Positions 1 through 19,132 of a stretch of 22,130 nt of DNA are shown here, piece by piece. This stretch comes from a virus, in IMG/VR virus record IMGVR_UViG_3300050018_000092, positions 1 through 22,130 of that record; one strand, 5' to 3'. Within the stretch, counting starts at the first letter, position 1. Every line of letters starts with the position of its first letter. A program made the position numbers and the translations under genes. The notes beneath the pieces are model-generated. The model was not told where the DNA came from and did no database searches. It worked only from the letters and a program-made list of their open reading frames with translations.

Positions 1-10
1 GTTGTCACCC

Positions 11-1348
11 ATGCGCAGCGCCAAACAAATCAAACCGCAGTCCCCGTCCTTCGCCGTCGAGTGGTGGCTGATTGGCCGCGTCACGCCGTATCCGAACAAC
101 GCCCGGGTGATTCCTGCGTCGGCAGTTGAGAAGGTCGCGTCCTCAATTCGGGCCTTCGGGTGGCGTCAGCCCATCGTGGTCGATGCCGCTGGCGTGATCA
201 TCGTTGGGCACGTTCGTCTACTGGCTGCACAGTCGATGGCGATGACCGAAGTTCCCGTTCACGTCGCGCTCGATCTCACGCCCGGCCAGGTGAAGGCGTA
301 CCGACTGATGGACAATCGGTCCCACGATGAGGCGACGTGGGATTTGGATCTGATTGGGCCGGAGCTTCAGAGCATCCAGGAACTGGACAGCGATTTCGAT
401 TTGGCGTTAACCGGGTTCGATCAGGATGAGTTGAACGCCTATCTGTTCCCGGAGGAGGAAACCAGCGGGGAAGAGGATCTGGTTTCTCTGCCGCCGGTCG
501 TGCCGGTCACTCGGCCCGGCGACTTGTGGCTCTGCGGTGAGCACCGCGTGCTCTGCGCGGATTCAACCAGCCCTGAGGCGGTCGCTCGGTTACTCGGGGA
601 TCGCAAACCGTTTCTGATGATCACGGACCCACCGTACGGAATCGAGCTGGATTCAGAGTGGCGGGATCGAGCCGGGCTGAACGGCTGCGGACCCGCTGAG
701 GCGAGCTACATGAAGCACCGCACCGAAGGCCACACTCAAACGGAAATCTCGGGCGACACGCGCGCGGACTGGTCGGAAGCCTTCGCGCTGGTGCCAAGCC
801 TTGAAGTGGGGTATATCTGGCACGCATCGAAGTTCACGCGCGAGGTCCTCGACGGCTTGCTGCGAATCGGTTTTCTGCATCACCAGCAGATCATCTGGAA
901 CAAGGGGCGCACCGTGCTCACGCGCACGCACTACTGGTTTCAACATGAGCCGTGCTGGTACGTCCGAAAGAAGAATGCGCCGTGGTACGGAAAGCCCGGC
1001 GAGAACTCGACGATCTGGGATTCGCCGTCGCCGAAATTTATCATGGGCGGTTCGGATGAGGAGAAGCTCGATCACCCCACGCAAAAACCCGTCGCGCTGA
1101 TGCGGCGCCCGATTCTGAATCACACCAAGCAGGGCGAGCTGGTGTATGAGCCGTTCCTTGGCAGCGGCACAACGCTCGCCGCGGCGGAGCTGACCGAACG
1201 CGTCTGCTGCGGACTGGAGCTCGATCCGAAGTACGTCGATGTGGTGGTCGAGCGATGGCAGCGGCTCACGGGGCTGGAAGCAACGCTCGATGGCGATGGC
1301 CGGACGTTCGAACAGGTGAAATCCGAACGTGTGGGGATCGCGGCATGA
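11..1348 (+). CDS. ParB-like nuclease domain / beta-class DNA methyltransferase fusion
   Basis: Predicted site-specific DNA methyltransferase (N6-adenine or N4-cytosine) with an N-terminal ParB/Spo0J-like domain. Numbering from the ATG at 11, the ParB-like part covers about residues 20-105 and carries a GHVRLLAA box (66-73). The catalytic part has DPPY (206-209, motif IV), then a putative target-recognition region, HPTQKP (355-360) and FLGSGTT (382-388, motif I, SAM binding). The order IV before I is that of beta-class enzymes. This two-domain architecture is common just upstream of phage terminase genes, where it may protect phage DNA from host restriction or mark it for packaging (inference). 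The frame is open to the window edge, with a TTG at 2, so the true start could be the TTG or lie upstream. The stop overlaps the ATG of the next small gene (ATGA). Confidence 0.9.
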   Translation: MRSAKQIKPQSPSFAVEWWLIGRVTPYPNNARVIPASAVEKVASSIRAFGWRQPIVVDAAGVIIVGHVRLLAAQSMAMTEVPVHVALDLTPGQVKAYRLMDNRSHDEATWDLDLIGPELQSIQELDSDFDLALTGFDQDELNAYLFPEEETSGEEDLVSLPPVVPVTRPGDLWLCGEHRVLCADSTSPEAVARLLGDRKPFLMITDPPYGIELDSEWRDRAGLNGCGPAEASYMKHRTEGHTQTEISGDTRADWSEAFALVPSLEVGYIWHASKFTREVLDGLLRIGFLHHQQIIWNKGRTVLTRTHYWFQHEPCWYVRKKNAPWYGKPGENSTIWDSPSPKFIMGGSDEEKLDHPTQKPVALMRRPILNHTKQGELVYEPFLGSGTTLAAAELTERVCCGLELDPKYVDVVVERWQRLTGLEATLDGDGRTFEQVKSERVGIAA

Positions 1349-1492
1349 ATCGCCCGCTGCCACCACGAGATCGCGGAATTAGAATCGCTCATTCTTTCCG
1401 GGCACCCCGATCTGCAGGGCCTGTGCCTCGCGCTCTCGGACTGGTCGGCTGAGCTGAGGATTCTGAAAGCAGAACTGCCGCCGGATCGTTGA
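1345..1492 (+). pseudogene. Small phage ORF (about 48 aa), apparently split by a one-base frameshift
   Basis: An ATG at 1345 overlaps the methyltransferase stop (ATGA), but its own frame turns into Arg/Pro-rich low-quality sequence ending at 1452. The frame one base further on, from about 1361 to the TGA at 1490-1492, reads like a real small protein: it contains HHEIAELESLILSGHPDLQG and then LCLALSDWSAELRILKAEL, an amphipathic helical pattern, but it has no start codon. Removing one C near 1360 joins ATG-start residues MNRPL directly to HHEIAEL and gives an uninterrupted 48-aa product. I infer a one-base insertion, a sequencing error, or less likely a +1 programmed shift. The function is unknown. 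Confidence 0.55.
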
Positions 1493-1504
1493 ACCCGGCG
1501 GCGG
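1475..1504. terminator. GC-rich hairpin, possible bidirectional terminator
   Basis: GCCGCCGG at 1477-1484 and CCGGCGGC at 1495-1502 form a perfect 8-bp stem around a 10-nt loop. The stem can be extended by a G-U and a C-G pair. It lies at the end of the plus-strand small ORF and just past the end of the convergent minus-strand DUF3489 gene, the usual place for a shared terminator. There is no T-tract on the plus side and only a broken T-rich stretch on the minus side, so intrinsic termination is plausible but unproven. Confidence 0.45.
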
Positions 1505-1527
1505 CTTGGTGAGGCAGGTGGAAGGCT

Positions 1528-1956
1528 CTACTTGGCGACGCGGTATACGCGGTCGCCTGCTTCGTTTTTCGAGGACTCGATATTGATGCTGTGCTTCTTG
1601 GCGGCGATGGAAATGAAACCCCTGACGCTGTGGGCCTGCCAGTCGGTAGCCTTCATGATCTCGGCAAGGGTCGCGCCCTTGGCGCGGGCGATCATGTCCA
1701 GGATCTTCGCGCCCTTGCTCTCGGCGCGGGGGGCGGCGGCCTTGCGTTCGGGCTTGGCGGCTTTCTTCGCGGCCTTGGCTGCCTTCTTCGGCGCGGCGGC
1801 TTTGGCTTTGGCACCCTTGGCGGTTTCCTGGCCCTTGGGCGCGCCTTTCTTCTGAGTGGCAGCCTTCTTCGAGGCGGCCTTGGCGGGCGCAACGGGCGCG
1901 CCCTGTTCCGCAACGGCGGCGGATTGGGTGGTTTCGGTAACTTCGTGGTTCTTCAT
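1528..1956 (-). CDS. Lys/Ala-rich protein with C-terminal DUF3489 domain
   Basis: A 142-aa basic protein. Roughly residues 1-80 are low-complexity Ala/Lys/Pro sequence, including PKKAAKAAKKAAKPERKAA, similar in composition to histone H1 or AlgP-like tails. Residues 80-142 match the DUF3489 pattern: KGAKILDMIARAKGATLAEI, then TDWQAHSVRGFIS, then a beta-rich end, which I read as a winged-helix-like DNA-binding fold (inference). I chose the ATG at 1956, preceded by an AAGGGAT Shine-Dalgarno-like stretch, rather than the longer frame from 2004. DUF3489 proteins are frequent in phages and integrative elements. The function is unknown; DNA or nucleoid binding, or regulation of the adjacent late genes, would fit. 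It is transcribed against both flanking plus-strand genes. Confidence 0.85.
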   Translation of the reverse strand: MKNHEVTETTQSAAVAEQGAPVAPAKAASKKAATQKKGAPKGQETAKGAKAKAAAPKKAAKAAKKAAKPERKAAAPRAESKGAKILDMIARAKGATLAEIMKATDWQAHSVRGFISIAAKKHSINIESSKNEAGDRVYRVAK

Positions 1957-2051
1957 GGTGGTTATCCCTTTCTGTTCAATCGCTTGCGCGTCTCTGCGCA
2001 CCACGATTCATCACTCCGTTTGAACCGGAAAGCAAGGCAATTGTTAGTCGA
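1957..2051. promoter_or_regulatory. Divergent intergenic region (DUF3489 protein / terminase small subunit)
   Basis: Ninety-five bases separate two divergent starts and must hold the leader of the minus-strand DUF3489 gene and probably a start point for the packaging genes. I see a short dyad, TGCGC-gtctct-GCGCA at 1985-2000, that could be an operator or a small hairpin. There is no convincing -35/-10 pair on either strand and only a weak Shine-Dalgarno before the ATG at 2052. The regulatory role is inferred from position. Confidence 0.3.
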
Positions 2052-2567
2052 ATGGGAATCTCTTTACGGGCTTACGCAAAGGCGCGCGGATGCAGCCTGA
2101 CCGCTGTTCAGAAGGCGATCGCCACCAAACGGATCACGAGGCTCCCGGATGGAAGTATCGATGCGGAGCGCGCCAACCGGGAGTGGTCGAAGAACACGTT
2201 CGCCGGCCAGACGATCCGTGAAGCTACCCCACCAGAGCGGCTTCCGATGCACGAGTCCCCGGCTCCCACGGGCGATCCCGTCACTGCTTACTTGCGGGCA
2301 CGTGCGGTCAAGGAGAGTTTCCAGGCACGGACGGCTGAGCTGGATTACAAGGAGCGCGCCGGGAAGCTGATCGACGCAGCGCGGGCTTCCGAGTACGCGG
2401 CTACGTTCTCCGCGATCGTCAAGGACGGACTGATGGCTATGCCGGATCGCCTGGCTCCGATGCTGGCGGCGGTGGACGACGAGAAGACGATTCATCGAAT
2501 GCTGGGAGCTGAGATTACAGCCTTGTTACGGAAGGTGAGTAAGTCGGTCGCGGACGCGGGTCTTTGA
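2052..2567 (+). CDS. terS: Terminase small subunit (Nu1-like)
   Basis: A 171-aa protein expected to recognise the packaging site and load the large terminase subunit onto DNA. The N-terminus (about residues 1-45: SLRAYAKARGCSLTAVQKAI, then a TRLPDGSIDA turn) is a helix-turn-helix/winged-helix of the kind seen in lambda Nu1-like proteins. The middle, YLRARAVKESFQARTAELDY followed by KERAGKLID, is typical of Nu1-family small terminases, and the helical C-terminus would be the oligomerisation and large-subunit contact region. It lies directly upstream of, and overlaps or nearly touches, the large-subunit gene, which strongly supports the call. The ATG at 2052 starts exactly at the DNA-binding domain; its Shine-Dalgarno is weak. 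Confidence 0.88.
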   Translation: MGISLRAYAKARGCSLTAVQKAIATKRITRLPDGSIDAERANREWSKNTFAGQTIREATPPERLPMHESPAPTGDPVTAYLRARAVKESFQARTAELDYKERAGKLIDAARASEYAATFSAIVKDGLMAMPDRLAPMLAAVDDEKTIHRMLGAEITALLRKVSKSVADAGL

Positions 2568-2569
2568 AG

Positions 2570-4465
2570 ATGCAGCCGTTCTCGATTCACGAAGTGGGCG
2601 CCGCGGCGATGCTGCCACCACGCGACATCACGGTCGCGAAGTGGGCAGACGAGAATCGTGTCCTCACCGGCGGCGCGGCGGCCGAGCGTGGACAGTGGCA
2701 CACGCGTCCTTACCAACGCGAGCCGATGGAGGTGCTCAGCCCGGCGCATCCGTGCCGGCAGGTCGTGCTGCTTTCGGCGGCGCAGCTTCTGAAGACCGAA
2801 GTGCTGCTGAATTTCATCGGCTTCATTGCCGACGTCGATCCGGGGCCGGTGCTGGTGGTCGAGCCGCGCGCCGAGGACGCGAAGGCTCTGTCGAAGGACC
2901 GCGTAGCTCCCATGTTTCGTGCGACGCCTGCACTGCGCGGGAAGATCGCGCCCGCGAAGTCGCGCGACTCGAACAATACGACGCTGCATAAAGTTCTCGC
3001 CAACGGCGAAGGGCACATCACTTTTACTGGGGCGATCTCACCGTCCGGTCTTGCGATGCGGCCGATCAGGTATGCGTTACTCGACGAGATCGATCGTTAT
3101 CCTGCGAGCGCAGGCACGGAGGGCGATCCGGTATCGCTGGCCATCCAACGCACCTCCGAGTTCGCGCACAACAAGAAGATCGTCATGGCGTCGACGCCGA
3201 CGATCAAAGGCATCAGCCGGATCGAACTGGCGTGGCTTGAAAGCGATCAGCGCGATTACTTTGTGCCCTGCCCGAAGTGCGGTGAGTATCAGGTGCTGGT
3301 GCTGGGCGACGGCACTGGGCCGGGACTGGTGTGGCCGGAGGGGAAACCGGACGAAGCGGCATATCGCTGCGTCGGATGCCGCGAGCTGGTCCCGAACCAC
3401 GAGAAAGCGCGGATGGTCGAGAGCGGCGAGTATCGCGCGCAGAATCCTTTGTCGCCGATTCCGGGATTCCGTGTCTCGCAGTTGATCTCGCCCAAACGGA
3501 GTTGGGGATCGATTGCGGTGGAGTTCCTCGCGGCCAAGAAATCGCCCGAGACACTCAAGGCGTTCGTGAACACGGTGCTCGCAGAACTGTGGGAGGAGAA
3601 GCATGAGACTCCCATGGACGAGCGCGCATTGTGGAACCGATGCGAGCCCTTCGAGTCCGAGGCACCGGATGGTGCGGCGCTGATCACCGCCGGAGTGGAC
3701 GTACAGGCCGACCGGCTCGAGGTGGAGATCGTTGGATGGGGTCGCGACGAGGAGTCGTGGTCGATCGCCTATCACGTGATCCCCGGCGACATCATGCGCA
3801 ACGAAGTGTGGGATCACCTGGAGAGCCTGCTCACTTCCGAGTGTATGCACGAATCCGGTCTGGGCATGCGCGTGGTAGCGGTGGCGATCGATTGCGGATT
3901 CAAGGACGCGCTGGTCCTTCGGTTCACGCGCGACCGCTACGCCCGCCGCGTTTACGCCGTTAAAGGACGCCCGGGGCAGACTCCGATCTGGCCGCGCAAG
4001 CCGAGCCGTAAGAATCAGACGCCATTCTTCATGGTCGGGGTCGACGCCGCGAAGACGGCGATCTATGACCGGCTGAAGATCCAGGAGCCGGGACCGGGAT
4101 TCTGTCATTTCCCGCTTGGGCGCGAGCTGGAGTATTTCGAGCAGTTGACGGCGGAGAAGAAATTCACGCGCTACCACAACGGGTTCCCGAAGCAGGAATG
4201 GAAGAAGGCCGCCGGCGCGCGCAACGAGGCGCTCGATTGCCGGGTGTACGCCTACGCGGCGCTGTATGCGCTGTACGCGAGCGGCTTGCGTCTGAGTGCG
4301 CACTGCGACAAGTTCGCTCAGATGGCGGGCGGTCGACGCGCCGAGTCAAAGACGGTGATGCCTCAACAGGAGCAGCGCTCGCAGCCGCCGACTGAAAGCG
4401 TGCCACCCGCGCTCATCGAGCGGACGGCTCCCGGGCCGTGGGTCCCACGAAGGAACTGGTTCTGA
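2570..4465 (+). CDS. terL: Terminase large subunit, GpA (lambda) family
   Basis: A 631-aa packaging motor and nuclease. Numbering from the ATG at 2570: the ATPase part has a Walker A-type loop SAAQLLKTE (69-77), of the Q-x-x-KTE variety common in GpA-type terminases, and Walker B LLDEID (170-175). A zinc finger follows (CPKC near 234-237 and CVGC near 267-270). The RNase H-like nuclease begins at TAGVDVQADRLEVE, with candidate metal ligands Asp377 and Asp441 (AIDCGFKD), and ends with the conserved NEALDCRVYAYAA stretch. Length agrees with lambda gpA (641 aa). A TTG at 2564 overlaps the previous stop and is an alternative start. The TGA is fused to the next ATG (TGATG), implying translational coupling with the joiner gene. 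Confidence 0.97.
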   Translation: MQPFSIHEVGAAAMLPPRDITVAKWADENRVLTGGAAAERGQWHTRPYQREPMEVLSPAHPCRQVVLLSAAQLLKTEVLLNFIGFIADVDPGPVLVVEPRAEDAKALSKDRVAPMFRATPALRGKIAPAKSRDSNNTTLHKVLANGEGHITFTGAISPSGLAMRPIRYALLDEIDRYPASAGTEGDPVSLAIQRTSEFAHNKKIVMASTPTIKGISRIELAWLESDQRDYFVPCPKCGEYQVLVLGDGTGPGLVWPEGKPDEAAYRCVGCRELVPNHEKARMVESGEYRAQNPLSPIPGFRVSQLISPKRSWGSIAVEFLAAKKSPETLKAFVNTVLAELWEEKHETPMDERALWNRCEPFESEAPDGAALITAGVDVQADRLEVEIVGWGRDEESWSIAYHVIPGDIMRNEVWDHLESLLTSECMHESGLGMRVVAVAIDCGFKDALVLRFTRDRYARRVYAVKGRPGQTPIWPRKPSRKNQTPFFMVGVDAAKTAIYDRLKIQEPGPGFCHFPLGRELEYFEQLTAEKKFTRYHNGFPKQEWKKAAGARNEALDCRVYAYAALYALYASGLRLSAHCDKFAQMAGGRRAESKTVMPQQEQRSQPPTESVPPALIERTAPGPWVPRRNWF

Positions 4466-4734
4466 TGGCGCTCACGACTCTGACCGTCGCGCAACTGACG
4501 GCGAACCTGAACGCGCTGTACATGGCGTTAGGTAATCCGCTGCTCCGCGCTCGCTTTCCCGATGGACGCGAGGTGCAGTATCGAATTGTTGACGATATTC
4601 GGAAGGCCATCGCGGAAACTGAGGATGCTATCCGAGAGGCCAGCGCGCAGAAGACTAGCAAATCGACGCTCGCGGAACACCGGCGCGGGGATGGCCCGTA
4701 CGTGGCGGGGTTCCCGCCGTGGGAGCAGTGGTGA
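4465..4734 (+). CDS. gpW-like head-tail joining protein
   Basis: An 89-aa protein in the position of lambda gpW, between large terminase and portal. The N-terminal helix (TVAQLTANLNALYMALGN) is followed by a short hairpin, RARFPDGREVQYR (28-40), and a second helix, IVDDIRKAIAETEDAIREA. This helix-hairpin-helix pattern (basic hairpin, V-x-Y/F, then D-I-x-K-x-I-x-E-T/L-E) is that of the gpW family, which stabilises DNA-filled heads and makes the platform for the tail. The C-terminus (GDGPYVAGFPPW) resembles the flexible basic/aromatic tail of gpW. The ATG at 4465 overlaps the terminase stop; a GTG further upstream at 4438 is less likely. Confidence 0.75.
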   Translation: MALTTLTVAQLTANLNALYMALGNPLLRARFPDGREVQYRIVDDIRKAIAETEDAIREASAQKTSKSTLAEHRRGDGPYVAGFPPWEQW

Positions 4735-4922
4735 TGCGAATCAATCCAACCGTTATCCAATGCGACTGCGGGTCGCCGGTACTCGTGTTGAATGAGCATG
4801 GCCTGTTTACCTGCTCGAATCCGCAGTGCGTGAACTTCGAGAAGGTGTTCAAACCTATCGAGGTGAAGGCGGTCCGCTCGCAGAAGACGTATCGGGAAAC
4901 TGTTTACACGGCGGCCGAATGA
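4734..4922 (+). CDS. Mini zinc-ribbon protein (62 aa), function unknown
   Basis: A small protein with two cysteine knuckles, CDC at 10-12 and CSNPQC at 27-32, spaced as in a zinc ribbon, followed by a charged tail. It is fused to the preceding gpW-like gene by a TGATG junction and overlaps the portal start by four bases (ATGA), so it is clearly translated as part of the packaging/portal run. It recalls the Com-like mini zinc fingers that activate translation of a neighbouring gene in Mu-like phages, but I cannot claim homology; a structural or terminase-associated role is equally possible. Confidence 0.7.
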   Translation: MRINPTVIQCDCGSPVLVLNEHGLFTCSNPQCVNFEKVFKPIEVKAVRSQKTYRETVYTAAE

Positions 4923-6610
4923 ACGTTCTCGATCGAGCGATCAACTTCGTTGCGCCGCGCTACGGGCTGCGGCGGACGCAGGCTCGCATGGCGCTGGAGT
5001 TGACCGCGGGTTACCTCGACCGGCACGCTTCGCGCTTCTCCTACGACGGGGCGAGCGCGGGGCGGCGCGCGTACGGCTGGTACGCTCCGTCGACCGACGC
5101 CAACGTCGAGTTGATGGGATCACTGGTATGGCTCCGCAACCGGAGCCGGGATCTGATCCGCAATAATCCGTATGCGTCGAAGGCGATTGAGGAGTTGGCA
5201 GGCAACACGGTCGGGACCGGCATCGTGCCGCAAGCGAAGACGGGAGACGCGGGGCTCGACCGTATCATCGATGCCGAGTGGCCGTACTTCGTCGAGAACT
5301 GCGATACGCCGCAGCGGCTGGATTTTTATGGGATGCAGTCCCTGATCATGCGCACTGCCGCCGAGAGCGGCGAGGCGATCCTGCGATTCAGGCCGCGCCT
5401 GGCGAAGGACAACCTGCGCGTGCCGCTTCAGCTTCAGATCCTGGAGGCCGACTTTCTCGATCAGACCAAAACGATGGGCACGGTCAACGGCCACATCATG
5501 CAGGGCGTCGAGTTCGATCTACTTGGTCGGCGCTCGGCGTACTGGCTCTATACGTATCATCCGGGCGGCGTTCTGATTTTGAATCCGCGCGGCGGAATCC
5601 TGAGCCAGCCGATTCCCGCCGAGCAGGTGCTGCACACATATCGCGTCCTGCGGCCCGGCCAGGTGCGCGGCATTCCGTGGCTGCATCCGGTGATGATGGC
5701 GCTGCGCGATCTCGACGATTACGCCGACGCGGAACGCGTGCGCAAGAAGATCGAAGCGTGCGTGGTGGCGATGGTGACACAGCCGGAGGGGATCGACGGC
5801 TCGACGCTTGGCCTTCAGGGAAAAGACCCGCTGACTCGCAATCCGGTCGAGTCGTTTCAGCCGGGAATGACCGCGTACTTGAAGCCGGGCGAGGATGTGA
5901 AGTTCAACAATCCGCCGGTCGCGGGTGGGTATCGCGAATACAAGATGACGGAGCTGCAGGGGATCGCGGCGGGCCTGGGGATTCCCTACGAGATGCTGGC
6001 GGGCGATCTATCGCTGGTCAACTATTCGAGCTGGCGCGGCGGCCAGTTGGGGTTCCGCAACACCATCGAAGGATACCGCTGGCTGACGCTGATTCCGATG
6101 TTCTGCATGCCGGTGCGAAGGCGCGTGATCGATACGCTGGTGCTCCTGGGTAAGGTTCCGGCGAAGGCCGTCACTGATCCAAAGATCAATCTGTACGGCA
6201 CGCAGTGGACGGCACCTCGGTTTGAATCGGTGGATCCGGTGAAGGATGCCGAGGCCGCGCTGAAAGATATCCGCATCGGACGCGTCACCTGGTTCGAGGC
6301 GGTGGTGGCCAACGGGTTCGATCCCAACGCGCAGATCGAGCAGATCGCGCTGTTCAACAAGCTGATGGATAAGTACGAGATCATCCTCGACTGCGATCCG
6401 CGCAACATGACCCTACGCGGACAGGAGCAGCCCGCTGGGACCGAGGAACGAACGCCGACGAGCAAAGCCGTGGGGGGCGCGCCGAAGCCTGGCAATCAGT
6501 CGACGAGGCTCTCCGATGAAGACCTGGGAATGATCAAGGAACTGCTCGTGGCTGGCGCAACGAACCGCGCGCGTGGATGGGAATCTCCCACGCGGATGTA
6601 CTTGACCTAA
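4919..6610 (+). CDS. Portal protein, lambda gpB family
   Basis: A 563-aa protein that should form the dodecameric DNA gate at one capsid vertex. The N-terminus has the hallmark RNRSRDLIRNNPYASKAIEE segment followed by NTVGTGIVPQA, characteristic of lambda-type portals. Later come LQLQILEADFLDQ, VLHTYRVLRPGQVRGIPWLHP, DLDDYADAE and AGDLSLVNYSSWRGG, all standard landmarks of this family in the expected order. Length is close to gpB (533 aa). The ATG at 4919 overlaps the zinc-ribbon stop (ATGA) and is preferred to the upstream in-frame codon at 4826, which lies inside the previous gene. The C-terminus from about residue 500 is polar and probably disordered. Confidence 0.96.
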   Translation: MNVLDRAINFVAPRYGLRRTQARMALELTAGYLDRHASRFSYDGASAGRRAYGWYAPSTDANVELMGSLVWLRNRSRDLIRNNPYASKAIEELAGNTVGTGIVPQAKTGDAGLDRIIDAEWPYFVENCDTPQRLDFYGMQSLIMRTAAESGEAILRFRPRLAKDNLRVPLQLQILEADFLDQTKTMGTVNGHIMQGVEFDLLGRRSAYWLYTYHPGGVLILNPRGGILSQPIPAEQVLHTYRVLRPGQVRGIPWLHPVMMALRDLDDYADAERVRKKIEACVVAMVTQPEGIDGSTLGLQGKDPLTRNPVESFQPGMTAYLKPGEDVKFNNPPVAGGYREYKMTELQGIAAGLGIPYEMLAGDLSLVNYSSWRGGQLGFRNTIEGYRWLTLIPMFCMPVRRRVIDTLVLLGKVPAKAVTDPKINLYGTQWTAPRFESVDPVKDAEAALKDIRIGRVTWFEAVVANGFDPNAQIEQIALFNKLMDKYEIILDCDPRNMTLRGQEQPAGTEERTPTSKAVGGAPKPGNQSTRLSDEDLGMIKELLVAGATNRARGWESPTRMYLT

Positions 6611-11287: not shown

Positions 11288-11896
11288 ATGGAAACTGAAA
11301 AGAAGACTGGCTTCGACGCAACGAAGCCGTTTGTTGTGCCGATCCTGTCGGGCGGCGAGAAGAGCTGCGAAGTGCGGTTCCCAACGGATGAGGAGTGGTG
11401 CGCCTGGGCGCGGGCACAGCGGACGGTGCGGCATTTTCTCGGGCGCGGCAAATCGCATAGCGAGGACGTGGACCTGCCCAAGATCAACGCCGAATTGTTC
11501 GCCAAGATTCGCATCGACAAACACGGTCCCGAGTTCGATGATGCTGAGGCCGGCATGGTGATCGGACGCATCGAGCGTTGCGCTGTGGCCAGCGTCGAAC
11601 GCGAGGGGATCAACTACCGGATCGAGATGAAGGTCCCCGGCGCGCGTGTGGTTCACGTGTTGCGGATGCCCACCGCCAAGGAGATGCAGGACCACGAACG
11701 TGGTTCGACCAGTGTCGTCGCCGCACGCAGGTCCGTCGAGACGCGCGCGTTCCTGGAGCCAAGCGGCGCTCTCTATGACAAGCTGCATGTCTCGCACGAC
11801 GGTTACGCCGCCGCGGTGCCGATCGTGCACAAGTCGGCGACGGTGTCCGAAGTCATCGCGCAACTGGCGATTGAGGCCGACGAAGACCCGGAATAG
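11288..11896 (+). CDS. Putative tail assembly chaperone, first frame (lambda gpG-like position)
   Basis: A 202-aa protein starting at an ATG with AGGAG five bases upstream. It opens with a charged METEKKTGFDATKPFVVPIL, followed by PTDEEWCAWARAQRTVRHFL and an acidic, mostly helical body ending LAIEADEDPE. Sequence similarity to gpG is not obvious to me; the assignment rests on position between tail tube and tape measure and on the second, overlapping downstream frame in the -1 register. If correct, it holds the tape measure in an extended, soluble state while the tube polymerises. It ends at TAG 11894-11896, where the downstream frame is already open. Confidence 0.65.
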   Translation: METEKKTGFDATKPFVVPILSGGEKSCEVRFPTDEEWCAWARAQRTVRHFLGRGKSHSEDVDLPKINAELFAKIRIDKHGPEFDDAEAGMVIGRIERCAVASVEREGINYRIEMKVPGARVVHVLRMPTAKEMQDHERGSTSVVAARRSVETRAFLEPSGALYDKLHVSHDGYAAAVPIVHKSATVSEVIAQLAIEADEDPE

Positions 11897-11949
11897 CTGC
11901 GCCCGGCGATTGGCCGGAAGAGCCGGGCGTTCGTTTCCTGATCCGGTCC

Positions 11950-12327
11950 GTGCTGCAGCAGGGCGGGCTGTGCGCGCGTGAGGAAGATTGCCCCGACCGC
12001 GTCTTCCGTTGCCGGAAATGCGGATACTCGGCTGGGTCGGAGTTGGATGGCTGTCCCGCGTGCGGTGCGAACTGGAAGGCCATCGACGTCAGTCACGGTT
12101 CGGCCTGCCCGAAGAATCGGCTCGAAGAAGCGATGGACACGCCCAACGGCGCTCTCGTCCGCCGTTGTTTCCGGATTCTGAACGCCAAGTGCATCGGACT
12201 AACGATCACCCTGGCGGATATCACAGAGGAGGAGTTCCGCTTGTTAGAGCTGATCGAAGCCGAGCGGCAGGAACAGATCGGGAGAGGGGACGCCGGCGCT
12301 CAGGATCGCCGGTCACGAGTCAGCTAG
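11950..12327 (+). CDS. Zinc-ribbon protein, possible second tail-chaperone frame (gpT-like position)
   Basis: At least 125 aa. A zinc ribbon (CRKC at 21-24 and CPAC at 35-38, with extra Cys at 8, 14 and 53) is followed by a helical part, GALVRRCFRILNAKCIGLTI, then DITEEEFRLLELIEAERQEQ. The GTG at 11950 is the first usable start, but it has no Shine-Dalgarno, and the same frame stays open and protein-like upstream (AAPGDWPEEPGVRFLIRSVL) to 11875, inside the end of the previous gene. The real product may begin at ATA 11893, or arise by -1 frameshifting from the upstream gene, as for lambda gpGT. No classic slippery heptamer is seen in the overlap. Confidence 0.65.
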   Translation: MLQQGGLCAREEDCPDRVFRCRKCGYSAGSELDGCPACGANWKAIDVSHGSACPKNRLEEAMDTPNGALVRRCFRILNAKCIGLTITLADITEEEFRLLELIEAERQEQIGRGDAGAQDRRSRVS

Positions 12328-12328
12328 C

Positions 12329-12390
12329 GGTTTGGCGACAAACCAGCCAAGTGAACATAGCGCCGGAATATCGGAAGCTGGCTGGGCTTT
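12329..12390 (+). terminator. Possible terminator after the chaperone genes
   Basis: Two bases after the stop codon, GGTTTG-gcga-CAAACC (12329-12344) forms a perfect 6-bp stem closed by a GNRA tetraloop. Overlapping it, CCAGCC (12343-12348) can pair with GGCTGG (12380-12385), which is followed by GCTTTTC. The two pairings exclude each other in part. This is the convergent gap between the plus-strand tail genes and the minus-strand methyltransferases, so a terminator is expected, but the T-run is short. Nothing else is seen in 12328-12459. Confidence 0.35.
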
Positions 12391-12459
12391 TCGCCGTATC
12401 CCGAAAGGGTAGGTTTCGAGACGCGCAGAATCAGCGATTGGTTCGGCGTCGGCCCGATT

Positions 12460-13086
12460 TCAATCCTCGAAGGGTGTTCTAACGCAGTAGCAGTACAGGA
12501 ACTGCTGCGCCGTCCCCCAAGGGGTGTAATGCAACTCCTGGGAGGCATCCATCAAGCGGAATCCAGCGCCGAACTCGCCGTGCAACGCTTGGGCGTCGTA
12601 CCGGACAACATCCAAACCGCTGCAACGGGCGGGACCATCAGGCCCGAAGGTGCTCACGATAACGTACCCGCCGGGACGAACGCTTCCCCTAACCGCACGC
12701 ACATAGGCGCTGCGATCTTCCGGCGACGTTAGAAAATGGAATACGGCGCGGTCATGCCAAACGTCGAAACCATGGCTCGGCAGTAAGGCCTTGGTGATGT
12801 CTGCCGCGATCCAACGGACGTGTTCTGCCGCGCTTCCGAGCCGACGTCGGGTGTCATCCAAGGCAGTCCGCGAGATGTCCAGGACCGTTAAGTTCCGATA
12901 GCCACGCGCGATCAGGTCGTCCACCAGCGTGGATTCGCCCCCTCCGACATCGACGACCGAAGCATCCACAGACCCGGCCGCGCGTTCGATCAAGCCGAGC
13001 GAAATATCGAGATGCGGGCGATACCAGCTCACCGCATTGGCTGGCTTGCTCTTATACACGGACTCCCAATGGCCTTCTGAGTTCAT
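12460..13086 (-). CDS. Class I SAM-dependent methyltransferase, cytoplasmic
   Basis: A 208-aa methyltransferase without signal peptide. The N-terminus, HWESVYKSKPANAVSWYRPH, followed by motif I VVDVGGGEST (44-53), the acidic TVLDIS strand (Asp70), WIAADIT (Asp96), DVWHDRAVFHFLT (108-120) and GGYVIVSTFGPDG, matches a widespread conserved family of small class I enzymes with a W-x-x-x-Y-x-x-K...SWY opening; its substrate is unknown to me. The ATG at 13086 overlaps the stop of the upstream methyltransferase gene (ATGA), indicating one operon with coupled translation. It points against the phage late genes and is probably host-derived cargo. Confidence 0.85.
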   Translation of the reverse strand: MNSEGHWESVYKSKPANAVSWYRPHLDISLGLIERAAGSVDASVVDVGGGESTLVDDLIARGYRNLTVLDISRTALDDTRRRLGSAAEHVRWIAADITKALLPSHGFDVWHDRAVFHFLTSPEDRSAYVRAVRGSVRPGGYVIVSTFGPDGPARCSGLDVVRYDAQALHGEFGAGFRLMDASQELHYTPWGTAQQFLYCYCVRTPFED

Positions 13087-13796
13087 GGATTTGGACGTAC
13101 GAGCACCATCACCCACATATCTGGGGAGTTCGGTCTCCAGCTTTCGGGGCGCCATTTGACGAACGGGTCCTCGATGCTCGACACCTGAAAGCCCGCCTCG
13201 ACAGCCTCGGCCCGGACTAACGCGGGAGCGATCTCATGCTGCTTGAGCTGATCGGCGCGCGACAGCGATCGATGTTCGGTCAGGCTAAAATCGGCGATGA
13301 CCAGTCTTCCGCCGGGTTTGAGCGCGTGGAGAAGCTTGTCGAGCATCGCCTGGTAGCTTTTGAAGTGATGATAACTGTCGAGAACCAGAACCGCGGCCAA
13401 ACGGCTCTGCGGAAGATTGGGGTCCTCCGGTTCGCCTTTGACGACAACGACGTTAGCGAGATTGAACAATCGTCCCCGAAGATTGAGGCTGCCGATGGCG
13501 ATATCGTCGATATCTTCGGCCAAAACCTTTCCATCCGGCCAAGTGAGCTGCGCCATGCGCATCGAATAGTAGCCGTTGCCTGCGCCCACGTCGGCGACCC
13601 AGTCGCCCCGTGAGATCTTCAGGTGTTCTAGAAGGCCAGTCGGGTTCTGTACCAGCTCGCGCCGCGCGTCCCCTTCTTTGAAATTCTGAATTGTCGAGCG
13701 ATCGTCGGCATTTTGCGGAACCTGGAAGGCGAGCGCTGCCGCGGCCACCAGCAGCAAAGTAACGCCGCCGGATATACATCGCATACGTACGATCAT
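13083..13796 (-). CDS. Class I SAM-dependent methyltransferase with N-terminal signal peptide
   Basis: A 237-aa protein (233 aa from the second Met at 13784). The first 25 residues, with a short basic start, GGVTLLLVAAAALAF and small residues after it, form a Sec-type signal peptide or a membrane anchor. The enzyme part has motif I VADVGAGNGYYS (67-78), AEDID (93-97), DSYHHFKSYQAML and LKPGGRLVIADF (159-170). It shares this layout with the next gene upstream, so the two are diverged tandem paralogues. Its stop overlaps the start of the cytoplasmic methyltransferase gene by four bases. The substrate is unknown. Export of a SAM-dependent enzyme is puzzling because SAM is made in the cytoplasm. 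Confidence 0.83.
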   Translation of the reverse strand: MIVRMRCISGGVTLLLVAAAALAFQVPQNADDRSTIQNFKEGDARRELVQNPTGLLEHLKISRGDWVADVGAGNGYYSMRMAQLTWPDGKVLAEDIDDIAIGSLNLRGRLFNLANVVVVKGEPEDPNLPQSRLAAVLVLDSYHHFKSYQAMLDKLLHALKPGGRLVIADFSLTEHRSLSRADQLKQHEIAPALVRAEAVEAGFQVSSIEDPFVKWRPESWRPNSPDMWVMVLVRPNP

Positions 13797-13873
13797 AACA
13801 ACTGCGGCCTAGCGGGATCAGGCTATGGTGATGGGCTCGCGCCGAGAGTCGCGGCGCAGTGCTTGTTTTCGAA

Positions 13874-14506
13874 CTACCGCTGCGCGGCGACCAGAAAGTA
13901 ATAGATTGGACCGTCAGGGATGTGCGCCGACTTTTCACGCGATTCAACGATCGTGAAGCCGACGCTGGTGAGTTCATCGCGGACGAACCCGGAAGCGATG
14001 TGGTGTTTCGCGGTTTGCTGTGCGCGCGTTTCCTCACCGGCGAGCGGAGAGGGCTCCGAAATCACGAGACGGCCGCCGGGCTTCAACGCGTCGTAAATAT
14101 GCCGGAGCATCTCTTGATAGGACTCGATTTCGTGATAGGCGTTCAGGATTACAACAGCGTCCAATTGGCCGGTGGGGAGCTTTGGATCGGCGGCGGCGCC
14201 AAGGATCGTCGAGACGTTCGAAAGGTGAGCCTCATCGACGCGCTTGTGCAAGCGGGCCAATCTCTTTTCGTCGATGTCTTCCGCATAAACCTGGCCGGAG
14301 CTGCCAACCACAGCCGAGAGACGAACCGTCAGGAAGCCATCGCCTGCGCCGATATCGGCGACGACGCTCCCGGGATGGACGTTCATGGCGGCAAAGACAT
14401 CGTCGATGTGCTGCCAGAGCTCTCGCTCGGATTCGTGGGCGATGTCCTGAGCGGAGATGGCGAGGGTTATGAACAGGGCGGCGGCGAGGGGTCGTGCGAG
14501 TCGCAT
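13874..14506 (-). CDS. Class I SAM-dependent methyltransferase with N-terminal signal peptide (paralogue)
   Basis: A 210-aa protein. Residues 1-20 (MRLARPLAAALFITLAISAQ) are a clear signal peptide with a probable cleavage after ISA. Motif I is VVADIGAGDGFLT (48-60), then YAEDIDEKRL, LDAVVILNAYHEIESYQEML and LKPGGRLVISEPS. It aligns by eye with the neighbouring exported methyltransferase through AEDID, the Y-H-x-x-x-S-Y-Q motif and LKPGGRLVI. It is the first gene of the minus-strand cluster, 77 bases upstream of its paralogue. I see no Shine-Dalgarno before the ATG at 14506. The role is unknown; similar exported methyltransferases are, as far as I recall, common in Acidobacteriota. Confidence 0.83.
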   Translation of the reverse strand: MRLARPLAAALFITLAISAQDIAHESERELWQHIDDVFAAMNVHPGSVVADIGAGDGFLTVRLSAVVGSSGQVYAEDIDEKRLARLHKRVDEAHLSNVSTILGAAADPKLPTGQLDAVVILNAYHEIESYQEMLRHIYDALKPGGRLVISEPSPLAGEETRAQQTAKHHIASGFVRDELTSVGFTIVESREKSAHIPDGPIYYFLVAAQR

Positions 14507-14724
14507 CTAATTTGACGATCTTATCCTATATTGACGCTTCTGTCCGAAACCGAGTCTCCTGGGTCAGCCCCTTCGCCTTTTGCTGTTCCCCGGGCAGATC
14601 TTATTAGAACGATAAGCATCGTCTACCAGCCCACAGAAGACCGGCGCTTGGGCGAAAACGCCCATTCCGGAGACTGACCACCGCATTATCCCCTAGGGAT
14701 CATGCTTCTCGCAGAGGTTAAACC
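14507..14724. other. Divergent gap between methyltransferase cluster and tail genes
   Basis: The 218 bases contain no gene I can support. They should hold the promoter of the minus-strand cluster; an AT-rich stretch at 14518-14532 (TATAGGATAAGAT on the minus strand) could be a -10 region, but no matching -35 is convincing. TGGGCG-aaaa-CGCCCA at 14649-14664 forms a perfect 6-bp stem with tetraloop, flanked by CCGG on both sides, and ATCCC-cta-GGGAT at 14688-14700 is a short dyad. AGAGG at 14713-14717 is the ribosome site for the next gene. Confidence 0.5.
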
Positions 14725-15183
14725 ATGTCCCGATTCCAAACCGTCATCAGAAGCGCTCGCTTCGTTTATTCGCCCTATACCGCGACCGAGATGCAGGGCT
14801 TCGCGCAGGTGCTGGCCGACTCGATCCGCGCGCGCATCCAGAGCGGGCAGAATATTTACGATCAGGCTGCAGCGCCGCTGAAACCCGGCCAGTCGGGCCG
14901 CCGCGGCTATCCCGATTACAAGTCGGCGCGTGGACTGAAGCCTATCCGTGACTGGACCTGGAGCGGGCACACCTTGCGTTGCCTCAAGGTCCTGACGGCG
15001 AACGAAAACCGCACGGCGATTGGATTTCTGGATGAAGCTCTTTCGGGCCGTCGGCAGACCGCCTCGCAGATCGCCGCTTTCAACAACCGGCGCGAGGCGC
15101 AGTGGGGCGTTTCGCCGCACGATCGCAGGGTGGTACTCGCTGCGTTCCAGGCGCGTCCCTTCGTGATGCTCAAGGCAGCGTGA
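14725..15183 (+). CDS. Small protein upstream of the tape measure, possibly virion-morphogenesis-like
   Basis: A 152-aa protein with a helical N-terminal half (TEMQGFAQVLADSIRARIQS) and a basic centre with GRRGYPDYKSARGLKP and TWSGHTLRCLKVLTANENRT. It ends AAFNNRREAQWGVSPHDRRV then a short RPFVML segment. The late N-x-R-x-x-x-Q-x-G and RPF elements resemble the A/N-x-x-H-x-x-G...P-x-RPFLG ending of phage virion-morphogenesis or tail-completion proteins (P2 gpS/Mu gpG-like), but I hold this loosely. AGAGG is seven bases before the ATG. It ends one base before the tape measure start, so it belongs to the tail operon. Confidence 0.6.
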   Translation: MSRFQTVIRSARFVYSPYTATEMQGFAQVLADSIRARIQSGQNIYDQAAAPLKPGQSGRRGYPDYKSARGLKPIRDWTWSGHTLRCLKVLTANENRTAIGFLDEALSGRRQTASQIAAFNNRREAQWGVSPHDRRVVLAAFQARPFVMLKAA

Positions 15184-15184
15184 A

Positions 15185-18100
15185 ATGGCAGACCAGGCAG
15201 AGCGCGTAATTCTCGAAGCCGAGGATCAAGTTAGTCCAGTCGTGGACAAGGCCAACGCCGGCCTGGATCGCTTCGAGAAGCAAGCGGAATCGTCGCACGG
15301 GAAGGTGATCCGGATTTCGGATCAGACCAGAACCAGCGTCCAGCGTCTGATTTCGTCGCTCGAAAAGCAGGCTGAGACCTATGGCAAGAGCGGCGTGGAC
15401 CGGTTGATCACGCAGCGGGATCAGCTCTTGCAGCGGTACAACCGCGAGCCGCAGGCCATCGATGCGATCACCAAATCCTACGAGAAGATGATCGCGATGG
15501 AGGAGAAGGCTGCGCGCGAATCGCTCGCGCTCAAGGCCGCCAAGGAAGCCGAAGAGGCGCTGCTAAAGCAATCGGAAGCCATCAAAGGGTTCGGGGAACG
15601 TGTCAGCCAGTTCATGGAGAATCCGCTTCAGGGAGCGAAGGGCGCAGTCTCGTCCGTGCTTTCTGCTCTTGGACCGTTCGGAATCGCGGTCACCACCGGC
15701 GCCGCCGTCCTCGGCACCATTGCGGTGTCGGCATTCGAGGCTGCGAAGAGTCTCGGCGAGTACGGCACCCGCGTGAAGGATGCGGAGTTGCGAACTGGAT
15801 TGACCGCGAAGGAGGTCGGCCAGTTCGGTTTCGCGGCGCGCGCGGTCGGGCAGGACATATCGATTGTCGAGCGCCTCATGCGCGGCATGGCCCAGGCGGC
15901 GAACGACAACTCCAACGAAGGTGAAAAAGCGCGGGCAACGATGCGCGCGATGGGGATCGAGTTTCACACCGCTACCGGAGAGATGAAACCCACTTCCGAG
16001 ATCCTGATCGAGCTCTCGGAGGGACTGAACAAGCTCCCGGCGGGGTTTGAGCGGGACGCCGCTGCGATGGCGCTATTTAAAAAGGTCGGCGTCGAGGCGA
16101 TTCCGTTCATGACGGAGCTGAATGAGAACCTGCGTGTCGCTCACGAGCAGGGGTTCGGGCCGACGGAGGAGGACATTCACCGTTTCTCCGAATACCAGCG
16201 GCAGATAACAGTGCTCGAAACCAAATGGGACGGGCTGGTCCGCAAGTTCAAAGAAGGGTTGGTTGTCACCGTGACGCTGGTCGGGAAGGGCGTTGACTGG
16301 TTCCTAAACAACATCGGGACGGCTGGTGATGACGAACGGCAGCACCACGAAGAAAAGCAGGCGCTTCAGGATGCCGCGCAGATCAAGTTGGTGGGTGGTT
16401 ATGGCGCGAGTGCGTCGGTCAGCGCCCATCGTAGCGAGGTGGCCGACATGGATCGTCAGGCGCCGGAGATCATGAAGAATCGCGACGCCACATTGAAGCG
16501 CATCGAGGAGATGCGGGCCGAACAGGAACGGTTGACCGCCGGTTTCGGTATGCTGCAGGCGATCGCTCCCACGCGCGACGAGGAAACTCGCTCGAAGAAG
16601 GCGAGCGACATCCAGGACCAAATCCAGCAGTTACAGAAGATGCTGGCGGATGCGGAGGCATCTACCAAGCGGAGCGATCTGCATGCGGGCAAGGAAGAGA
16701 CGAATCGGATTCGCGCCCGGTTCTTCGGCACGCACGATGGCATGGAGAAGGCATACGCCGACGCCAAGAAGGATGTCGAGCGGCTGCAGAAGCAATTACT
16801 TGAACCCGACAAACCTTTGACCAAATCGCAGGCGCAGGACCTGGATCAACAACTCCACGCGGCGCAAGCGAATGAGACTCGCCGCAAATCGGCACTGGAT
16901 GCGGTGACGAAGGGCGCGGAGCAGCTCAAGGAGTTCCAACGCCAGGCGGCAGAGTTCGAGAAGAAGGGCGATGAAGCTGAGCTGGACGCGATCGGCAAGA
17001 TCTACTATCAGCGGGACCAGCTTCTGAAGCAGGCCGCGCAGGTGAAGGCGTCGGAAAAAGAGATCACTGCGATCCGCAAGTCTGCTGAAGAGCAGGCGTC
17101 CGTGATCTACAAAAAGTCGTGGGAGGAGTTTGAAAAGTACGACGAGAAGCAGATGGCCGCGCGGAGTAAGAGGATGCTCGCGCTGATGGGGCCGTCGAAA
17201 GACCAGATGAAGGAGTGGGAGGAATATTTCGCCGCGCAGGAAAAGATCGAGGACATCGGAGTGCAGACGCAGCGCGAAGAGGCTCGACGGAGCGCGGCGC
17301 GATCCGGGCGCATGGCGGAACTGACTGCCGGTCAGGAAGCGCCCGTGGCGATGTCCGAAGCCGAAAAGCGGGACCGGGCAGATCGTAAAGAAGTGGCGGC
17401 TGCGCAGCAGGCATACCAGACTAGGCTCGACCTAGCGGTCCAGTTGGCCGGCATCGAAGCCGAGCGTATCTCGAAAGAGGAGAATGCGGCGAAGCGCTCC
17501 GTGCTGGCGGCGCAGGCGCAGAAGGATCTGTTCACGGAGCTTGCCCTGGCTCAGGATCAGTTCGAGGAAAAGCAAGCGCAGATCCAGCAGAAGCGCCAGC
17601 AGGAAATACAGTCGCAGATCGACGGGCTACAAAAGCAGGCAGAACGGCTGTTCGATGTGCTGTTCACCAAGCCAAAGAATTTCGGTAAGGATCTGTTCAG
17701 CACGATTCACGCCGCGGTGCTCAAGCCAGTGACGGAAACGCTCGGTGGCGCGGTGGCGAACGTGGTGCATCCGATCATCTACGGGTCTGACGGGCGCGGC
17801 GGCCTCAGTGGAATGTTGCGCGGCACGTCGCAGGATCCGGTGCGCGTCTCGACCGACATGAACACATCGGCGACCATGCAGAACAGCGCCGTGATGGCCA
17901 GCTTGACGGCGATTCTTGCCGCCAGCATGGGAGTGGCGGCACCGTCCATGTCGGGCGGCGCGGCTGGCGTTCCATCGATCTCGATCCCGTCGATTTCGGC
18001 TCCGGCGAGCGCGAGTGCCAGCTTGAGTTTGCCAGCGATCCTCGGGGGCGGCCTCTCGCTTGGCGGAACGTCGATGCCAGTCGGCGGCGGTGGAAGCTCG

Positions 18101-19132
18101 GTTTCAGCGACGGCCGCGCCCGATATTCATGACCTTCCAATGCGTTCCACTTCAGGGAGCGCCGGATTCAATCCGCTGGGGTTGCTGTTTCCAAGTTCCA
18201 GCAAAGGGATGGGCGGGATTGCGGGAAACATCTTCAAGCCCGGTGGCCTCACCGGCATGCTTGGAAATCTGAAGAACTCCGTCTACAACTCCGGCGGTAT
18301 CATCATGGGGCCTGGCGTCGGGACCACCGCAGCCGGAATCGGTGGTCCGCTGGGCACAGTTGCCGGCGTTGCTTCCAGCCCGGCGGCGGGCATGGCAGGG
18401 CTGATGCTCGGCATCAACGGAGTCCAGCGTCAGGGCGTGGGAGGAACGATCGAGGCCGGTCTGGGCGGCGCTCTCGCGGGCTTTTCCCTCGGCTCGCAGA
18501 TTGGTTCGCTCGGTGGTCCGATGGGTGCGGCGATTGGTGCAGGGGCCGGTGTACTCGCTGGAGTCATAAGTTCGGTGTTTTTCGAGTCTCCGCAGAAGAA
18601 AGCTCACGAAGACATCCAGCAAATCTACGGTGTGAATATTCCGCAGAACAGCGGCACGATCAAGCAGGTGGTGCAACTCGCACAGTCGCAGTTCGGCGGT
18701 GATATCGCCGTCGCGGTGCGGTCGCCTAGCGTCCGTCAACTGGTGATGCTGTATTCGGAGGCCACAGGCCAGAAGATGCCGCTGTCGGCCACCACGCCGT
18801 ACGCAGGGAGTCTCGTGGAGCAAGGCGGCAAGGTCTATCAACAAGCCAGCTACCAGGACGGACAGGCTCACACCTACGCCTCGAACATCCCGACGCTCGG
18901 CGGGATCGCATCGGGAACCTACCCGACTCCCGGAGGCCCGAACACCTCGGGGGGCACCGGCGCGACGTACATGTCGCTGAACATCAGCGGCAACGATGCC
19001 GCGAATTTCATGACGGGCCAGTTCGTGACGCCGCAGTTCGTGACCGACCAGGCGATGGCGGCGCAGTATTCGAGCTACGGGCGCACGCAGCAGTCGGCCA
19101 ATATGCAACTGCCCGGTTTGACAGTGTCCTAA
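15185..19132 (+). CDS. Tail tape measure protein
   Basis: A 1315-aa protein, the longest in the window. Residues 20-145 and 480-860 are charged, Glu/Lys/Gln-rich and predicted coiled coil. A hydrophobic Ala/Gly/Val segment lies at about 155-185 (SSVLSALGPFGIAVTTGAAV onward), and Gly/Ser/Ala/Met-rich, partly hydrophobic sequence fills 910-1140, as expected for the region inserted into the host membrane. By the usual rule of about 0.15 nm of tail per residue, the tail would be near 200 nm (inference). It has no recognisable peptidase or lysozyme domain. It starts directly after the small tail gene stop and is followed, 34 bases on, by the fibre-like gene. Confidence 0.93.
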   Translation: MADQAERVILEAEDQVSPVVDKANAGLDRFEKQAESSHGKVIRISDQTRTSVQRLISSLEKQAETYGKSGVDRLITQRDQLLQRYNREPQAIDAITKSYEKMIAMEEKAARESLALKAAKEAEEALLKQSEAIKGFGERVSQFMENPLQGAKGAVSSVLSALGPFGIAVTTGAAVLGTIAVSAFEAAKSLGEYGTRVKDAELRTGLTAKEVGQFGFAARAVGQDISIVERLMRGMAQAANDNSNEGEKARATMRAMGIEFHTATGEMKPTSEILIELSEGLNKLPAGFERDAAAMALFKKVGVEAIPFMTELNENLRVAHEQGFGPTEEDIHRFSEYQRQITVLETKWDGLVRKFKEGLVVTVTLVGKGVDWFLNNIGTAGDDERQHHEEKQALQDAAQIKLVGGYGASASVSAHRSEVADMDRQAPEIMKNRDATLKRIEEMRAEQERLTAGFGMLQAIAPTRDEETRSKKASDIQDQIQQLQKMLADAEASTKRSDLHAGKEETNRIRARFFGTHDGMEKAYADAKKDVERLQKQLLEPDKPLTKSQAQDLDQQLHAAQANETRRKSALDAVTKGAEQLKEFQRQAAEFEKKGDEAELDAIGKIYYQRDQLLKQAAQVKASEKEITAIRKSAEEQASVIYKKSWEEFEKYDEKQMAARSKRMLALMGPSKDQMKEWEEYFAAQEKIEDIGVQTQREEARRSAARSGRMAELTAGQEAPVAMSEAEKRDRADRKEVAAAQQAYQTRLDLAVQLAGIEAERISKEENAAKRSVLAAQAQKDLFTELALAQDQFEEKQAQIQQKRQQEIQSQIDGLQKQAERLFDVLFTKPKNFGKDLFSTIHAAVLKPVTETLGGAVANVVHPIIYGSDGRGGLSGMLRGTSQDPVRVSTDMNTSATMQNSAVMASLTAILAASMGVAAPSMSGGAAGVPSISIPSISAPASASASLSLPAILGGGLSLGGTSMPVGGGGSSVSATAAPDIHDLPMRSTSGSAGFNPLGLLFPSSSKGMGGIAGNIFKPGGLTGMLGNLKNSVYNSGGIIMGPGVGTTAAGIGGPLGTVAGVASSPAAGMAGLMLGINGVQRQGVGGTIEAGLGGALAGFSLGSQIGSLGGPMGAAIGAGAGVLAGVISSVFFESPQKKAHEDIQQIYGVNIPQNSGTIKQVVQLAQSQFGGDIAVAVRSPSVRQLVMLYSEATGQKMPLSATTPYAGSLVEQGGKVYQQASYQDGQAHTYASNIPTLGGIASGTYPTPGGPNTSGGTGATYMSLNISGNDAANFMTGQFVTPQFVTDQAMAAQYSSYGRTQQSANMQLPGLTVS

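Follow-up and report, generated by a model that had tools for sequence, protein, structure and literature searches.

The junction between the tail chaperone frames and the gene preceding the tape measure is probably a hotspot slot for cargo genes in a family of temperate phages of Acidobacteriota (Bryobacterales), and the three minus-strand methyltransferase genes found there are likely the cargo of this particular phage, with a putative role in small-molecule methylation. The window, i.e., the whole stretch of DNA analyzed, is a complete IMG/VR record of 22,130 bases and contains the late gene block, in which the portal (PF05136), a capsid–protease fusion (PF25209), the tail tube, the chaperone frames, and the tape measure were assigned with Pfam and PHROG. 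The tape measure gene (15185–19132, plus strand) matches phrog_12506 and phrog_1533, and together with the tube gene it suggests a siphovirus (long-tailed) form. It is adjoined by gpX (14725–15183, plus strand), the right anchor of the slot, which has 107 relatives in viral contigs, with 78–97% identity among those kept and aligned, and no match in deposited phages. More distant gpX relatives with 52–56% identity occur on three contigs of one host genome (G003:C19, C94, and C97), which suggests a wider phage family sharing this anchor gene.

The left anchor is chap1 (11288–11896, plus strand), conserved in nearly all related loci and followed by chap2 (11950–12327, plus strand), the -1 frame continuation that forms the left boundary of the hotspot and has a variable C-terminus, with lengths of 76–186 aa. 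The chaperone identity of chap1 is only deduced, because it has no Pfam or PHROG match. Relative to chap1, chap2 is read in the -1 frame. The two are joined by a linker of 53 or 50 nt in 77 of 79 loci, and in all loci except one the chap2 frame stays open through the chap1 stop. The linker varies mostly where the chap2 frame has its third codon positions (entropy 0.58 vs. 0.12 and 0.16), and chap1 ends in a nearly constant sequence (GACCCGGAAT in 55 of 61). These features support the reading of 11288–12327 as a -1 frameshifted tail chaperone pair with a putative programmed frameshift, and the constant-frame linker, the coding-type variation, and the near-invariant chap1 end back the earlier note, which had named these genes tail chaperone frames from the sequence of the window.

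A gpX search of IMG/VR viral contigs yielded the 107 relatives, 80 of which were kept, and both chap2 and gpX are present in 79 of these 80 contigs. The chap2–gpX junction has a median length of 1,243 bp (range 6–5,534) and exceeds 250 bp in 77 of 79 contigs, in contrast to the neighboring junctions that serve as an internal control, with medians of 9 bp for tube–chap1, 53 bp for chap1–chap2, and 1 bp for gpX–tape measure and at most one exception each; the chap1–chap2 distance is 50–54 bp in all 78 loci measured. The three methyltransferases (MT1, MT2, and MT3) have matches in none of the 80 relatives, whose junction is instead filled with other DNA in 77 of 79 cases and empty or nearly so in two, one of them (L081) being an empty allele of 6 bp. 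The trio is therefore carried by one phage and missing from the corresponding site of its close relatives, as expected of the moron or lysogenic-conversion cargo for which the earlier note had taken it. Three loci deviate in other ways. L061 (6453–7307) has a nearly empty chap2–gpX slot of 32 bp and, between gpX and the tape measure, an insert of 850 bp with a minus-strand ORF that is guanylate-kinase-like by eye, and its poor chap1 match makes sequence errors possible. L077 (2478–3226) carries a 720 bp tube–chap1 insert with minus-strand ORFs that resemble a HicA–HicB toxin–antitoxin pair by eye. In L030 (1–6000), the 6 kb preceding gpX match neither tube nor chaperone, and the insert may be longer than 6 kb or the gene order may differ.

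The position of the trio inside the tail gene block could be taken to indicate a role in virion assembly or structure as a member of the tail module, a reading that is hardly credible, since the genes are absent from all 80 relatives that have the same tail genes, lie on the opposite strand, and have bacterial genes as their relatives, so that it is largely excluded. The content of the slot differs in nearly every phage, so that the trio, which had seemed an unfamiliar kind of cargo, is not special in this respect. After removal of near-identical contigs, 118 deduplicated cargo ORFs (the three of the window included) fell into 109 blastp clusters, with only seven spanning more than one locus, these counts being approximate because the ORF caller was home-made and in its final form missed MT2 of the window. 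Two pairs of loci (L017/L023 and L031/L035) are approximately 93% identical on both flanks and have unrelated cargo, and the cargo of the window is likewise unrelated to that of its nearest relatives, L003 (92% and 89% in the flanks) and L002 (91% and 87%). L031 and L080 share a MazF-type cassette at 86% identity, although their gpX genes are only 78% identical, suggesting that cargo may be exchanged between lineages. The GC content of the cargo is lower than that of the flanks in 78 of 78 loci (medians 0.555 vs. 0.628); in the window, the cassette also lies below its flanks, but by a small difference (0.590 vs. 0.613), which counts against the cargo reading. In 51 of 69 loci, the longest ORF of the cargo runs opposite to the tail genes (p = 9e-5).

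On the gpX side, the slot ends in a sequence of approximately 80 bp directly upstream of gpX that is common to about 20 occupied loci, including the window at 14648–14721 (right border feature 14648–14724, plus strand, nhmmer profile); since most of these loci were used to build the profile, they match it in part by design, and elsewhere it gave only one chance-level match. On the chaperone side, the left border DNA (12328–12354) belongs to a region around 12290–12354 with short blastn matches to L020, L047, L055, and L069. The left edge of the window cassette (12290–12337) matches L020 at 90%, and at the right edge 24 of 24 bases are identical to the same locus, whose cargo differs. These borders place the foreign segment at approximately 12355–14647. 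They also bear on the possibility that the window is a phage–host chimera produced by misassembly, as the bacterial type of the genes and the failure to find the cassette on any second contig might indicate. Such a chimera is very improbable, because the cassette is flanked on each side by phage border DNA that also occurs in L020, a locus with other cargo, and dozens of other contigs and prophages in metagenome-assembled genomes (MAGs) hold cargo at the corresponding position. No recombination site was found repeated at the two ends, the shared border being confined to the gpX side; therefore, no site-specific cassette system is proposed, and recombination through the conserved neighboring genes would be the simplest mechanism.

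Prophages with the same junction were found in MAGs named Bryobacterales, Solibacteraceae, and Acidobacteriia (L082–L085), and a tyrosine integrase is present in seven of 18 tested viral records, a set that may include several fragments. On the basis of these prophages and integrases, at least part of the phage family is temperate. The chaperone-to-gpX/tape-measure junction is a fixed and almost always occupied slot, with cargo of approximately 0.4–5.5 kb that differs in nearly every phage. In the proposed mechanism, the cargo would be swapped when the conserved tail genes and border DNA on either side recombine. Antisense cargo might be expressed in the lysogen by transcription separate from the late operon, and its retention would reflect a benefit to the lysogen. 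A sigma-70-like promoter was not found around the cassette, and an Rfam search gave no match. The cluster is framed by spacers of 132 and 218 bases as first described, yet the hairpins said to accompany them stand out weakly, with six terminator-like sites in 11850–15200 against 3.2 ± 1.6 expected.

The trio corresponds to three minus-strand ORFs at 12460–13155 (231 aa), 13083–13796 (237 aa), and 13874–14506 (210 aa), all intact and each matching general methyltransferase domains above the Pfam gathering scores (Methyltransf_25, _11, and _12), which upholds the description of three class I SAM-dependent methyltransferases between the chaperone frames and the gene before the tape measure; a Rossmann domain with motif I, as defines this class, is present. 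MT1 (13874–14506, minus strand; Methyltransf_25, 2e-15) and MT2 (13083–13796, minus strand; Methyltransf_31, 1e-10) are paralogs with 35% identity, and an alignment of the two has the motif I, YH, and LKPGG positions intact in both. The structural model of MT1 (pLDDT 89) has mostly small-molecule methyltransferases as its best PDB matches and resembles 3dh0, AtmM, RebM, and MitM in a fold search. MT3 is of the cytosolic type and matches Methyltransf_25 in Pfam (4e-12) and phrog_26773 over its full length (7.5e-75). Homologs align with the longer ORF only from about residue 24 onward; hence, the true start is probably the ATG at 13086 rather than at 13155, giving a 208-aa protein (12460–13086, minus strand) whose start would overlap the MT2 stop as ATGA, the overlap of two genes reported earlier becoming visible once the start is moved. 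Judged by their motifs, the enzymes look active. Under a simple home-made rule for signal peptides, MT1 and MT2 qualify, as do 20 of 29 inspected host loci of the MT1 type, so that the export claimed for two members is plausible. If both are really exported, extracytoplasmic SAM chemistry would be hard to explain.

The relatives of the trio point to a probable host origin of the genes. MT1-type genes occur in 175 of 200 host-order genomes (E <= 1e-20) with up to 46% identity and MT3-type genes in 32 of 200 with up to 66% identity, and MT2 has one close host relative (59%) in genome G166. This relative (L131, G166:C412, 3995–5416) stands beside small genes that are mercury-resistance-like by eye, and the hotspot L075 contains a MerR regulator and a similar small protein. 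A relative of MT3 with 55% identity is present in Pseudomonas phage Y11 (L142, 4001–4609), in a record that is unverified and unannotated. Scans of the viral contigs with MT1, MT2, and MT3, sensitive to close relatives only, gave no relatives, and the three genes were not found together in any inspected host stretch. MT1 and MT2 resemble an exported-type methyltransferase family of Acidobacteriota in their domain, plausible signal peptide, and DP, YH, and LKPGG motifs; however, they share only 35–59% identity with it and are phage-borne beside MT3. MT3 is similar to the phrog_26773 type in its full-length match and has relatives in phage Y11 and in host-order genomes; the MT3-type genes of inspected host stretches differ in that they come without MT1 and MT2. 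The preferred reading combines two related enzymes of exported type with a cytosolic one, from families that are all represented in the host order.

Regarding the action of the trio, small-molecule methylation seems the most likely and anti-phage defense less so. DNA methylation or restriction–modification was rejected, as the Pfam matches are to general methyltransferase, Ubie, PCMT, and RNA-type domains and to no DNA methylase family. Methylation of a metal or metalloid leading to tolerance in the lysogen is a quite improbable alternative, suggested by an ArsM-type model as the top NCBIfam match of MT1 and MT2, by the mercury-type genes seen by eye next to the host relative of MT2, and by the MerR regulator of L075. 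ArsM requires conserved cysteines, and yet MT1 has none and MT2 a single one in its signal-peptide region, with scores of 49–58 bits against the ArsM cut-off of 510; an ArsM arsenite methyltransferase was rejected on both the missing cysteines and the scores far under the cut-off. The trio could also be an anti-phage or superinfection-exclusion system whose products make other phages fail by altering the envelope or a signal, which would accord with the two exported-looking members and with the many other cargoes of the slot that match known or candidate defense families. This is unlikely, given that MT3, the one member with a singly reported PADLOC result, matches only the family mads_2 (4.3e-10) and does so through the general methyltransferase domain only, and that the host order commonly carries housekeeping-type genes of the same families as the trio.

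Among the Pfam and PADLOC matches of the cargo in the sister loci are TIR proteins (L054 and L067); AIPR/AbiU (L060); GmrSD_N/NsnA with PDC-S15 (L006); a HATPase with a REase_II match (L023); HD-CE (L029); a kinase/ORC-CDC6 protein (L042); a KAP NTPase (L044); a DNA methylase with Vsr, ORC-CDC6, and CARF proteins (L056); pentapeptide repeats (L064); MazF (L031); HigB/PD-Lambda-2 (L078); an IrrE-type peptidase (L036); PD-(D/E)XK and RNase_T (L073); HNH (L077); MerR (L075); and an FGE-sulfatase domain (L004). Many of these resemble defense, toxin–antitoxin, and restriction families, by homology only; the trio of the window has no specific defense match. More than half of the 40 cargo ORFs scanned individually have no Pfam family at 1e-5. 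It is possible, if rather doubtful, that the slot is a dedicated site for defense and fitness cargo in a widespread family of soil Acidobacteriota phages and that many of its matchless large ORFs are undescribed anti-phage systems, the trio among them.

The Acidobacteriota rank with the most abundant bacteria of soil, and little is known of their phages. With cargoes that often resemble anti-virus defenses and often match nothing, the slot is a promising place to seek new defense systems, and its single anchor, gpX, offers a simple route for mining metagenomes for new defense, toxin–antitoxin, and lysogenic-conversion genes. It also indicates that a cargo hotspot can occupy the middle of the tail gene block while the neighboring gene order stays fixed.

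Among the papers searched, none describes a hotspot at this position, and a paper on acidobacterial viruses makes no mention of one. Among known systems, the slot shares with morons and lysogenic-conversion genes the presence of extra genes amid conserved late genes, usually antisense, of differing base composition, and dispensable in relatives, but here an empty slot is rare, and nearly every phage has a different content in it. The diversity hotspots of phages were described as small loci of approximately 1–5 kb with high turnover between two conserved genes, for instance, near cos or in the repressor–integrase interval of other phages, and were expected to be findable in small metagenomic contigs (Rousset et al., 2022; PMC9122126). 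In the present family, two conserved flanking genes in 79 loci, a size of approximately 1–5 kb, turnover, and temperate carriers were found. Judged from sequence comparison, the closest known kind is therefore this type of phage diversity and defense hotspot, here at a new position and in a new host phylum. Both are small, have a conserved phage gene on either side, turn over rapidly in content, and include many defense-type genes; the present one differs in lying inside the tail block, in another phage family and another host phylum, and in having its defense content assigned by homology only.
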